NCBI GenBank assembly: GCA_015066975.1
Contig: SVNI01000005.1
Location: 1-60,735, forward strand
Reading direction: 5' to 3'
DNA length: 60,735 nt
From: Ruminococcus sp.
GTDB lineage: Bacteria; Bacillota; Clostridia; Oscillospirales; Ruminococcaceae
Shown one piece after another: positions 36,976 through 41,531 of the stretch (position 1 is its first letter; the number at the start of each line of letters is the position of its first letter). The notes beneath the pieces were generated by a model, which saw nothing but the letters and a program-made list of their open reading frames with translations, was not told the origin of the DNA and did not search any database. The position numbers and the translations under genes were made by a program.

Positions 36976-39014
36976 CAGTGCAGACCTCCTTTAAAATATA
37001 AGCCGTTTGTGCGTTTTTCCGGAATTTTCCGGGATTCTGTCTCATAATCATGCAGAATCTGCCTAATTTGTTCCGATGTTTCTTCTGTGAAATAGAAATC
37101 CTGATACTCCAGTGCGGAAAATTCCTGTAATTTATCAGCAATCCACAAAATTTCAGAATTCAGCATTTCGATATAGTCATATTCCTGACTGCACAGCAGA
37201 GGGAATTTTCTTCCCGTGCGGTCAGTGAGTGTGCAGTTCCTGTGATGACAGCCGTCCTGTGATTTTATCGGACATACCCTGAAAAGCATCATCGGCAGAC
37301 GGCCATAGACGAATGCACCGCCGGAAACGCTTTCTGCAAGGGCATTCAGGCTTTTTGCAGACAATTCATAAGAGAATACAGTATCCTGCAAGCCCTGTTC
37401 TGCAAGGCTCTGCGCCGTGACGGAATTCGTACAGTTCAGACCGAATCCGCCGTGCAGAACAAATCCCATCTCCCTGCCGATTCTGATATCTGCAAGATTA
37501 TGACAGAGCAGATGCCGATATCCTTTCTGATATAACTCTTTCAGCTTCTGAATATATTTCTTTTCGTTCCGGATAATCCGGGGGGCTTCGATATAATTCG
37601 ACAGTTCCGGTTTGCAGTTCAGTGCAAGCGATACCGGCAGACAGAAAATTTCTCCGGAAATATCCTGCATCTGTGAAAGCTTCCGGATGTGCAGTCTTTT
37701 TCTGACAGTGTGATGCTGTTCTGTCTTCTCCGGAATCTGAACGCTGTTTTCCGGATGAATTTCATAAACAGGCGTATTGTGCCGGATTCGTTCTGTATTC
37801 ATGGCTTCGACAGCATTCCGCCTGAGCGCATTACACTGTGAGGCCGATAAAATCATTCCGTCCGGATTGTCTAACTCCACATTCCGGCAGGAATAGACAG
37901 TATCTCCTAATTTTTGCATACTTTTCCGAAGTGTTTCAGGAGTGAGAGGTGCTTTCAGAGCTGTTTCCGGAATTTCGCCGGAAACTGTCACAGTATTCCC
38001 GTCACCGTCCGAAACTGTCAGCAAAGACGGCTGATTCTGTATCAGCTTCATAGAGAAATCCAGTTCCGTGATAACTCTTTCTTTCTGATATCCTGCCTGA
38101 ATTTCTTTAAAAACTTTCTGTCCGGCGAGAACATCTTCTTTCCGGCGATAACCGAACATATTCTTTCTGATTCCGGTGAAATAGCCATCTGTAAAACCGC
38201 TTCGGGAGAAAACCGCCTGAAGCGTTTCCATATCCGGCTGATGTCCTTCCAGAGCCATTCTGAGTGCCGTCACCGCAGAAGCGACATATTCAGGACGTTT
38301 CATTCTGCCTTCGATTTTGAACGAATCCACACCGATTGCTTTCAGTTCCTGCACATGTTCGACAAGGCTCAAATCCTTGAGCGACAGTGCTGCCGGATTC
38401 TTTCCGGCAGGGGTTTTCCACGGCAGACGGCAGGCCTGTGCACATTGTCCGCGGTTGGCACTTCTGCCTCCTGCAACAGCCGAAAAACTGCACTGTCCCG
38501 AAACTGACATGCACAGCGCACCATGCACAAAAACCTCTGTTTCGACAGGAAGCGCACATAATAATTTCAAATCTTCGAGGGACAATTCACGGGCGGCGAC
38601 AATCCGGGAACAGCCCAGTGTCTTCGCCTGTAATGCGCCCTCTGCGTTATGGATGCTCATCTGTGTGGAAGCGTGAACCGACATTTCCGGAATGCTGTTT
38701 TTTATGATTTTCAGAATGCCCAAATCTTGAACAATACATGCATCAATGCCGGATTCGGCAGCTTTCCGGATAAATTCCTGAAACTCCGGTAATTCCTTAT
38801 CTGTCAGAAGCGTATTGACAGCAAGATGCAGTTTTGCACCGTACAGGTGACAGAGTTCAGAAGCCTGTTTCAGTTCCTGCAAATCGAAATTGACGGCACT
38901 GCTTCGGGCAGAATAGGCTTTTGCGCCGACATAGACGGCATCTGCACCGCAGCGGAGTGCAGCAATCAGTGTTTCCATGCTTCCAGCGGGAGCTAAGATT
39001 TCAGGATTTGCCAT
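36975..39014 (-). CDS. Peptidase U32 family protein
   Basis: The product (679 aa from the ATG at 39014) starts with ANPEILAPAGSMETLIAALR, the U32 signature, and has DAVYVGAKAYSARSSA and a four-cysteine Fe-S-type cluster, CMSVSGQCSF and NRGQCAQACR (near residues 165-195). Large two-part U32 proteins like this act in tRNA or rRNA hydroxylation (TrhP, RlhA) in other bacteria; proteolysis is not established. The C-terminal half adds a second barrel-like domain with CPIKSQDGCHHRNC. A TTG at 39035 could add 7 residues. The start lies within the end of zapA. Confidence 0.88.
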   Translation of the reverse strand: MANPEILAPAGSMETLIAALRCGADAVYVGAKAYSARSSAVNFDLQELKQASELCHLYGAKLHLAVNTLLTDKELPEFQEFIRKAAESGIDACIVQDLGILKIIKNSIPEMSVHASTQMSIHNAEGALQAKTLGCSRIVAARELSLEDLKLLCALPVETEVFVHGALCMSVSGQCSFSAVAGGRSANRGQCAQACRLPWKTPAGKNPAALSLKDLSLVEHVQELKAIGVDSFKIEGRMKRPEYVASAVTALRMALEGHQPDMETLQAVFSRSGFTDGYFTGIRKNMFGYRRKEDVLAGQKVFKEIQAGYQKERVITELDFSMKLIQNQPSLLTVSDGDGNTVTVSGEIPETALKAPLTPETLRKSMQKLGDTVYSCRNVELDNPDGMILSASQCNALRRNAVEAMNTERIRHNTPVYEIHPENSVQIPEKTEQHHTVRKRLHIRKLSQMQDISGEIFCLPVSLALNCKPELSNYIEAPRIIRNEKKYIQKLKELYQKGYRHLLCHNLADIRIGREMGFVLHGGFGLNCTNSVTAQSLAEQGLQDTVFSYELSAKSLNALAESVSGGAFVYGRLPMMLFRVCPIKSQDGCHHRNCTLTDRTGRKFPLLCSQEYDYIEMLNSEILWIADKLQEFSALEYQDFYFTEETSEQIRQILHDYETESRKIPEKRTNGLYFKGGLH

Positions 39015-39381
39015 TGTGATTAATACTTTCTGCAAGTCGCTTGAGCTTTAAGGAATTTTCAAGCTGTTCGATTTTGGAGCGCATGACTTCCATTTCTTTG
39101 AGAGCAGCATCACGTTCCATTCTGGCGCGTCCGGCTTCATCCACATATTCTTTTGTTTGAGCGGAAATTTCTTCGAGACGCTTGTTGGATTTATTCAAAT
39201 CATCCAGAGCGGACAGAGCAGCCATGATTGCAGCATTATACTGTGAAACGCCGAGTCTGTCCATAGAATCTGTAATTTTATTTTCGAGTGTTCTTGCGAG
39301 TCCGTAAACATAATTAGGTGCTTCTGCGGTCTGCATAACATAATCTTTTCCACAGATAACGACTTTTACTTTATTCATCAT
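39001..39381 (-). CDS. zapA: Cell division protein ZapA
   Basis: ZapA stabilises FtsZ bundles at the division site. The 126-aa product has the ZapA globular head (NKVKVVICGKDYVMQTAEAP, YVYGLARTLENKI, AAIMAALSALDDL) followed by a coiled coil (about 70-120). Start: I choose ATG at 39381, 11 nt after AGGAG; TTG at 39387 and a second ATG at 39378 are alternatives. Overlaps the U32 gene by 14 nt and lies 22 nt after the LexA-like gene. Confidence 0.88.
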   Translation of the reverse strand: MMNKVKVVICGKDYVMQTAEAPNYVYGLARTLENKITDSMDRLGVSQYNAAIMAALSALDDLNKSNKRLEEISAQTKEYVDEAGRARMERDAALKEMEVMRSKIEQLENSLKLKRLAESINHNGKS

Positions 39382-39403
39382 AATCAATTCAACTCCTGTT
39401 CGT

Positions 39404-39931
39404 TCAGAAATGCCGTATTGCAGAAACTACTGTCCCGACAGCCCTGTAACCGCCGGGCAGTTCCCTGTCAGTCAGTTTCAGTTCTCCGGAGTCGTTCAGG
39501 AAAACTGTAATTTTTCCATACTGCTGTATATCATTTTTTTCGGCAATGAGCATATCACCCCGCAGAAACGCAAATTCCGGATATTCGCTTTCCAGACAAA
39601 AGGCAAATAACGGATGCTTATGCTTTACTTCAGAAAGAAAATCATAATAGCGGATGATATTGCATTCGTCCAGAGTTTCAGAATTTTCCCGGATACCGCT
39701 GATAACCGGAATTCCCTCCGGAACGGAAGAAGACACAAAAATAGCGCGTTTTTTTGCAGAATCTATCTGTAATTTTCCATCTTTTTCGAGCTGATGCAGA
39801 TAACGGTGTACGGTCGAAGTAGACCGCACTCCGACTGCCTGCATAATTTCGCGGACGGATGGCGCGATACCATTCTGACGGATGCATTTCTGTACAAATT
39901 CCAGAATATCTTCTGACCTCTGATTATTCAT
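39404..39931 (-). CDS. LexA-like repressor with inactive S24 peptidase domain
   Basis: The 175-aa protein has a LexA winged helix (residues 1-65; APSVREIMQAVGVRSTSTVH, RYLHQLEKDGKL) and a C-terminal domain that aligns with the LexA peptidase, but every catalytic element is altered. The Ala-Gly cleavage site reads Glu82-Asn83, the nucleophile serine position is Tyr117 (SEYP where GDSM is expected) and the general-base lysine position is Thr154 (LKLT). It should therefore not self-cleave with RecA. It overlaps murC by 8 nt and precedes zapA, in a wall-and-division operon. A regulator that no longer answers to the SOS signal is inferred. Confidence 0.8.
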   Translation of the reverse strand: MNNQRSEDILEFVQKCIRQNGIAPSVREIMQAVGVRSTSTVHRYLHQLEKDGKLQIDSAKKRAIFVSSSVPEGIPVISGIRENSETLDECNIIRYYDFLSEVKHKHPLFAFCLESEYPEFAFLRGDMLIAEKNDIQQYGKITVFLNDSGELKLTDRELPGGYRAVGTVVSAIRHF

Positions 39932-41351
39932 ATTGTTTCTCCTTTAATTTTTCAAGAATCATTTTAGCGACTTTGTTGATGTCGCCACAGCCCATAGTCA
40001 GCACCAAATCGCCGGGCTGAACATGTTCGGTCACATACTTGCAGACATCATCAAAATTCTGATATTTGCGTTCATCGGTATATTCTGCGGATTCGTCCTG
40101 CGGAAACCAGACTGTTTTGTCTTTATTCATGATTTCAGCAAGATTTCTGGTATAGATATTCCAGGTATTCTTCTCTCTTGAACCCATGATATCTGTTAAG
40201 ACAGCAATATCTGCAATGCTGAGAGCTTCGGCGAATTCTTCGAGATGCTGGGCAGTTCTGGAGAATGTGAACGGCTGGAATACTGCCCAGATGCGCTTAT
40301 AGGGCATTTCTCTGGCAGCTCTGAGGGTTGCGGTCAGTTCTGTAGGATGATGTGCATAATCATCTGCAATGGTCACACCGTTGACTTCGCCCTTGATTTC
40401 AAATCTTCTGCCTGCGCCGTGAAAAGCTTTCAGTCCGTTCTGAATCTGTTCAAACGGAATGCCGATATTATCGCAGGCGGCAACTGCGGCAAGAGAATTC
40501 AGAATATTATGCTCACCGGGAACTTGAATGACAATTTTTCCGAGTTCCTGAGCGTTTTTCAGAACTGTATAGCACATCTGACCGCCGAGATGTTCCGGAT
40601 TGACAGCGCGGTAATTGTTATTTTCTCCGTAGCCGAAAGAAATCATTTCTTTTCCGGAAATGCCTTCTACTGCCTTGCAGGTGTTGGCATCATCACCGTT
40701 ATAGATAATTGTTTTGGAAGTCAGTTCACAGAATTTATGGAATGACTTGATAATATTATCCACAGTCTTGAAATAATCCAGATGGTCAGCATCAATATTC
40801 AGGATGACAGCAGTATCCGGATAGAGTTTCAGGAACGTGTCAACAAATTCGCAGGATTCGCAGACGAAAATATCACTTGTGCCGGCGCATCCGCTTCCGC
40901 CGATACAGGGGAGCTTTCCGCCGATAAAAGCAGACAAGTCCACTCCGGCATCATGCAGAATCTGTGCGAGCATGGAAGTGGTTGTTGTCTTGCCGTGCGT
41001 ACCGGATACACATACTGCATTCTGATACCAACTGCTGACAATGCCTAACAATTCGCTTCGTTCGAGCACAGGCACACCGGAAGCTCTGGCAGCAATCAGT
41101 TCCGGATTGTCTGCCATAATCGCGGCCGTATGCACAATTAAGTCAGCACCCTCGATATTTTCGGCTCTCTGACCGAACATGACCGGAATACCCATATTCC
41201 GGACAGCCTGAAGGGTTTCGGTTTCATTGTTATCCGAACCTGTCAGATAAAATCCCTTGGAATGCAGAATCTGTGCGAGCGGATACATACCGCTTCCGCC
41301 GATTCCGATAAAGTGAATATGTTTTTTTTCGTCTAAAATTGATTTGTTCAT
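39924..41351 (-). CDS. murC: UDP-N-acetylmuramate-L-alanine ligase
   Basis: MurC adds L-Ala to UDP-MurNAc, the first amino acid of the peptidoglycan stem. From the ATG at 41351 (6 nt after AGGTG) the protein has 475 aa: the Rossmann-like IHFIGIGGSGMYPLAQIL, ATP loop SGTHGKTTTTSML, LNIDADHLDYF and the C-terminal FHGAGRRFEIKGE and DDYAHHPTELTATL. First gene of the murC-lexA-like-zapA-U32-dut-DUF4321 operon. Confidence 0.95.
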   Translation of the reverse strand: MNKSILDEKKHIHFIGIGGSGMYPLAQILHSKGFYLTGSDNNETETLQAVRNMGIPVMFGQRAENIEGADLIVHTAAIMADNPELIAARASGVPVLERSELLGIVSSWYQNAVCVSGTHGKTTTTSMLAQILHDAGVDLSAFIGGKLPCIGGSGCAGTSDIFVCESCEFVDTFLKLYPDTAVILNIDADHLDYFKTVDNIIKSFHKFCELTSKTIIYNGDDANTCKAVEGISGKEMISFGYGENNNYRAVNPEHLGGQMCYTVLKNAQELGKIVIQVPGEHNILNSLAAVAACDNIGIPFEQIQNGLKAFHGAGRRFEIKGEVNGVTIADDYAHHPTELTATLRAAREMPYKRIWAVFQPFTFSRTAQHLEEFAEALSIADIAVLTDIMGSREKNTWNIYTRNLAEIMNKDKTVWFPQDESAEYTDERKYQNFDDVCKYVTEHVQPGDLVLTMGCGDINKVAKMILEKLKEKQYE

Positions 41352-41403
41352 AAAATACACCTAATTTCTTCTTATTTAGTACACAAATTGCGTTTATACT
41401 ATT

Positions 41404-41433
41404 CTTATACTGCTTTTTGGTTACAATTGTCAA
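41404..41433 (-). promoter_or_regulatory. Probable promoter of murC
   Basis: Minus-strand TTGACA (41428-41433) and TATAAG (41404-41409) with an 18-bp spacer; the only promoter in the window with a spacer other than 17. Confidence 0.55.
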
Positions 41434-41457
41434 TTCTTTCCTGAAAGTATGCTTCAT

Positions 41458-41487
41458 AAAGAATTTCATTATACAAAATCAGAATTT
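41458..41487 (+). promoter_or_regulatory. sigma-H-like promoter of spoVG
   Basis: AAAGAATTT (41458-41466) matches eight of nine positions of the sigma-H -35 consensus RNAGGAWWW; TCAGAATTT (41479-41487) matches the -10 RNNGAATWW except at the first base. Spacer 12 bp. No sigma-A promoter is visible. spoVG is a classic sigma-H gene in Bacillus. Confidence 0.6.
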
Positions 41488-41531
41488 TTTCAAAAAGCAG
41501 TTTTCCATGATTAAGGAGGTTAATAAATATT

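Follow-up and report, generated by a model that had tools for sequence, protein, structure and literature searches.

A Ruminococcus LexA orthologue without the self-cleavage site and catalytic dyad, a probable non-cleavable repressor

In the literature that we found, natural loss of LexA cleavage is documented essentially for one cyanobacterium, Synechocystis sp. PCC 6803, whose LexA retains neither the Ala-Gly site nor the nucleophilic Ser (PMC3091678). This protein is a repressor outside SOS that evolves faster than its relatives, with recA outside its predicted regulon and no self-cleavage products seen (PMC3091678, PMC7567884); tuning by phosphorylation has been suggested (PMC7567884). Literature searches on LexA in Ruminococcus-like bacteria, on degenerate LexA and on a LexA-controlled sigma-like/mazF locus yielded nothing relevant.

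Here we describe a LexA-type protein encoded in a 60,735-nucleotide stretch of a Ruminococcus sp. genome (contig SVNI01000005.1, assembly GCA_015066975.1; hereafter, the window). Synechocystis LexA is the nearest known case, being likewise a LexA orthologue that lacks the cleavage site and the nucleophile, but it has its own changes (Gly-Gly and Asp) and reported binding sites unlike the standard box, whereas in LexA of the window type deletions have in addition shortened the domain, the box appears to be still of the standard Gram-positive type, and the loss recurs in several lineages. Canonical LexA, as found in the same genus and in Bacillus and E. coli (TIGR00498, PF01726 + PF00717), resembles the window protein in the HTH, the predicted fold and the GAAC-N4-GTTC operator and, within the genus, occupies the orthologous locus, but the window protein has no cleavage site and no Ser-Lys dyad, is about 20 residues shorter and scores below the family cut-off. 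The behavior expected here is that of the engineered non-cleavable LexA variants S119A and G85D, namely, permanent repression of LexA targets, with the difference that LexA of the window type is natural and fixed in a clade. The features of the locus are the following:

39404..39931, minus strand: lexA orthologue predicted to lack autoproteolysis, 175 aa (profile scores, synteny, alignments)
39734..39931, minus strand: LexA winged-HTH domain, residues 1-66 (PF01726, E=4.4e-16)
39683..39688, minus strand: Glu82-Asn83, replacing the Ala-Gly cleavage site (alignment with intact LexA)
39581..39586, minus strand: Glu116-Tyr117 region, expected position of the nucleophilic Ser, which is deleted or replaced (two alignments)
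39470..39472, minus strand: Thr154, proposed in the sequence-only reading as the equivalent of the catalytic Lys (two alignments; adjoins a deletion in one)
39416..39445, minus strand: C-terminal strand (residues 163-172) that is shared by intact LexA (alignment and AlphaFold model) and presumably corresponds to the dimer strand of LexA structures
39924..41360, minus strand: murC, upstream of lexA and overlapping its start
39001..39387, minus strand: zapA, downstream of lexA (PF05164)
41361..41531, no strand: spoVG-murC intergenic region, no GAAC-N4-GTTC box (box scan)

The window protein is the genus's own LexA, degenerated at the ancestral locus, and not a new kind of gene, given that an intact, cleavable LexA is found in the same murC-zapA slot of sister species. 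Within the genus, the gene block murC-lexA-zapA-U32 peptidase-dut is the same for degenerate and intact LexA, and in 15 genomes an intact LexA occupies the syntenic slot of the window protein. The HTH, considered clearly LexA-like in the sequence-only reading, indeed matches LexA_DNA_bind (PF01726) across residues 4-63 (58.9 bits, E=4.4e-16, cut-off 23.7), and its recognition helix, STSTVHRYLH, is common to intact LexA. A sequence search of the PDB retrieved LexA as the best matches, and the NCBIfam LexA model TIGR00498 gives the window protein 71.8 bits, below the cut-off of 110.95. Peptidase_S24 (PF00717), which is detected in the LexA of an intact relative with E=5.4e-35, has no match in the window protein even at E<=1. 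No second LexA-type protein, intact or otherwise, was found in the window genome (assembly 96.5% complete); likewise, in those of the 37 further species of the genus where LexA is detectable, it is either intact or degenerate, never both in one genome. Identity to the window MurC ranges from 75 to 96% across the genus, and degenerate LexA proteins outside the two nearest relatives are 34-51% identical to the window protein. A public collection contains two close relatives, both Oscillospiraceae genomes, one from the rumen of roe deer and one from goat omasum.

Alignment with an intact LexA of the same genus pairs Ala85-Gly86 with Glu82-Asn83 of the window protein, exactly as proposed from the sequence alone. 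The same reading placed Tyr117 at the nucleophile and Thr154 at the lysine. The serine is indeed gone, but the assigned residue is one place off: the serine column corresponds to a one-residue deletion or to Glu116, and the counterpart of Tyr117 is the Met that follows the Ser. Thr154 occupies the position of the catalytic lysine in one alignment but adjoins a deletion at that position in the other; there is no Lys in either. In an alignment of the 16 full-length degenerate proteins of the main clade and 15 intact LexAs from the genus, the nucleophilic Ser and the catalytic Lys were absent in 16/16 degenerate proteins and Ala-Gly was missing from 15/16, the one exception being G003, a pattern too consistent to be due to chance. 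With the site, the Ser and the Lys all missing, the window protein probably does not self-cleave, which agrees with the principal claim of the sequence-only reading, that of a LexA-type protein unable to do so.

The LexA box of the genus, of the GAAC-N4-GTTC type, was derived from the promoters of the Y-family polymerase in intact species (GAACATAAGTTC and similar). Putative LexA operators sit at conserved promoters in the window genome. A perfect box, GAACATTTGTTC, is located just after the TTGACA...TAGAAT promoter of two small ORFs:

L160:2498-3082 (window genome C88): two-ORF operon behind the box, comprising an 84-aa coiled-coil-like ORF and a 109-aa ORF with sigma-70 region 4 only

The sigma-70 region 4 of the second ORF matches PF08281, and a mazF-type gene then adjoins. 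Both the box and this sigma-like operon are conserved in the genus: in 13/13 main-clade genomes that have the region, a perfect box follows TTGACA at a nearly constant distance, compared to 3/13 for the next best of the 256 such palindromes at that promoter. In most intact relatives, the same promoter carries one or two boxes, of which the degenerate genomes retain only the promoter-proximal one; G025, a degenerate species outside the main clade, has imperfect boxes only (7/8 arm bases). A second box site, in the nrdD/aroG divergent region, is found in six degenerate species (imperfect in one) and also in the intact G002 and G020. There are 82 GAAC-N4-GTTC matches in the window genome, and the predicted regulon, drawn from the matches listed, is a minimum; most of the other matches examined lie inside genes and were taken as chance. 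In addition, a perfect palindrome, CAGAACATGTGTTCTG (L158:2479, window genome C40), falls in a 50-base gap between two same-strand genes and might be an operator, a hairpin or a chance occurrence.

The explanation that we consider likely is that the window protein is a LexA without the intramolecular peptidase, uncoupled from RecA and SOS, that still represses a remnant regulon via the ancestral GAAC-N4-GTTC operator. Under this scenario, loss of the intramolecular peptidase would eliminate the RecA-triggered SOS switch, and the degenerate LexA probably would still fold, dimerise and repress at the ancestral boxes. The operon of coiled-coil-like and sigma-70-region-4-like genes upstream of the mazF-type gene is a predicted remaining target, joined in some species by the nrdD/aroG region. 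From these sequence comparisons, we infer that the degenerate LexA binds the boxes, resists cleavage and represses its targets either constitutively or with gradual tuning. Alternatively, the boxes could serve another HTH protein.

The AlphaFold model of the window protein (pLDDT 85, pTM 0.59) retrieved LexA structures as the best PDB matches in a Foldseek search (TM 0.4-0.7), so that the C-terminal domain is predicted to adopt the LexA-type fold; with a pTM of only 0.59, the domain arrangement and the dimer remain predictions. The degenerate lexA is under relaxed purifying selection, with the peptidase domain relaxed and the HTH kept. The dN/dS is below 1 in all pairs compared, reaching 0.13-0.40 for the whole gene in degenerate pairs vs 0.03-0.13 in intact pairs, and 0.16-0.61 vs 0.02-0.12 for the C-terminal domain. 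The mean identity of the HTH is 60% among degenerate proteins and 70% among intact ones; between the main clade and the intact LexA of the genus, it averages 56% for the HTH and 25% for the C-terminal domain.

Given that purifying selection still acts on the C-terminal domain, it has some role, and such a role might be sought in continued inducibility, whereby LexA would be inactivated in trans, by a protease (ClpXP or of the ImmA/IrrE type) or by modification, and would still switch under stress, but in response to a different trigger. The phosphorylation changes reported for Synechocystis LexA (PMC7567884) also favor this possibility, but the degenerate domain has no conserved Ser to serve as a common phosphosite, and we consider trans inactivation unlikely. 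Control of the surrounding wall and division genes by a repurposed LexA-like protein, which the sequence-only reading deduced from the location between murC and zapA, is very unlikely. Although lexA overlaps murC and adjoins zapA, this slot is ancestral because it is occupied by a cleavable LexA in sister species; furthermore, no box was detected between spoVG and murC in the window, and the conserved boxes are elsewhere. Since boxes are missing both upstream of murC and from the recA promoter, wall and division gene control is not supported. Still less probable is that lexA is a decaying pseudogene on its way to being lost. The C-terminal domain does diverge fast, with a mean identity of 36% among degenerate proteins vs 80% among intact ones, but the frame is open in the degenerate genomes examined, the whole-gene dN/dS values given above indicate constraint, and the HTH and the operator are kept across a deep clade. 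Finally, a relocated Ser/Lys active site that preserves cleavage is barely credible: single Ser and Lys residues occur in the C-terminal domain, and the degenerate LexA of G103, from another genus, retains the Lys, but across the 16 main-clade proteins this domain has no conserved Ser or Lys elsewhere (at best, 9/16 for Ser and 11/16 for Lys), which makes a shared relocated dyad unlikely.

Degenerate LexA arose more than once. In the species tree of the genus, built from eight concatenated proteins, 17 degenerate species form one clade (support 100/100), and the degenerate G025 is nested inside an intact clade (support 100/100), apart from the clade of 17, which implies at least two changes within the genus. 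A single degenerate clade is rejected (p-AU 0.0017), and the HTH of G025 is closest to those of intact proteins. A search of 298 genomes of the family with the degenerate-LexA profile (E<=1e-8) yielded 24 further loci with an intact site and dyad, plus the degenerate G103. The LexA of G103 (L288:1417-1998) has Lys-Ser at the cleavage site and no Ser nucleophile, with the catalytic Lys kept; that of G317 (L301:1567-2088) lacks Ala-Gly, Ser and Lys altogether. These two genomes represent two other genera of the family, and both degenerate LexAs are encoded downstream of murC; three genus mates of G103 carry an intact LexA at the same place. This makes at least four losses in this sample, two in the genus and one each in G103 and G317, a minimum rather than a census, as the higher-scoring matches of the family search were those covered. 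The segment following the lysine (HYRLQPEN...PIIV) is missing from each of the four degenerate lines. Separately, the degenerate-LexA profile matched nothing at E<=1e-8 in 121 of the 298 family genomes, and many genera of the family may have lost LexA or have a very divergent one.

A broader, tentative generalization, plausible but short of probable, is that, at least four times in one gut Clostridia family, LexA turned into a short permanent repressor through loss of the site and the dyad and deletion of the same post-lysine stretch, the operator of the sigma-like operon being kept in the clade examined. If so, holding the sigma-like operon off, and not the DNA-damage response, would be the reason for which LexA is kept in these genomes. 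Cleavage loss recurs here in a set of close relatives with the locus and the operator in common but with LexAs of differing predicted cleavability, so that both the worth of SOS switching and the indispensable LexA target become directly testable. An SOS response should not be assumed from the annotation of a gene as LexA. In these gut and rumen bacteria, the degenerate LexA probably represses permanently and has ceased to be a switch for DNA damage.

Among SOS genes, the one for the Y-family polymerase, which has LexA boxes in some intact relatives, was found in 0/18 degenerate genomes vs 10/16 intact ones (Fisher p=6e-5), a contrast that amounts to about one evolutionary event plus one and is only suggestive given that 17/18 degenerate genomes belong to one clade and that assemblies are incomplete. 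The genomes with an intact LexA in which this polymerase was not found are G004, G007, G010, G011, G013 and G029, some of these assemblies being incomplete. By contrast with the polymerase, recA is present in the window genome and in most of the degenerate genomes searched. No LexA box was found at the recA promoter in the degenerate and intact loci scanned (L063-L085, L100-L105); because this holds for species with an intact LexA as well, the LexA regulon of this genus may not include recA, and the cost of losing the LexA switch may be smaller for the same reason. The sequence GAACAACTGATATG upstream of recA was considered as a degenerate box and dropped, since it fits a -35 element. In G022, a perfect box match is located farther upstream of recA, off the promoter.
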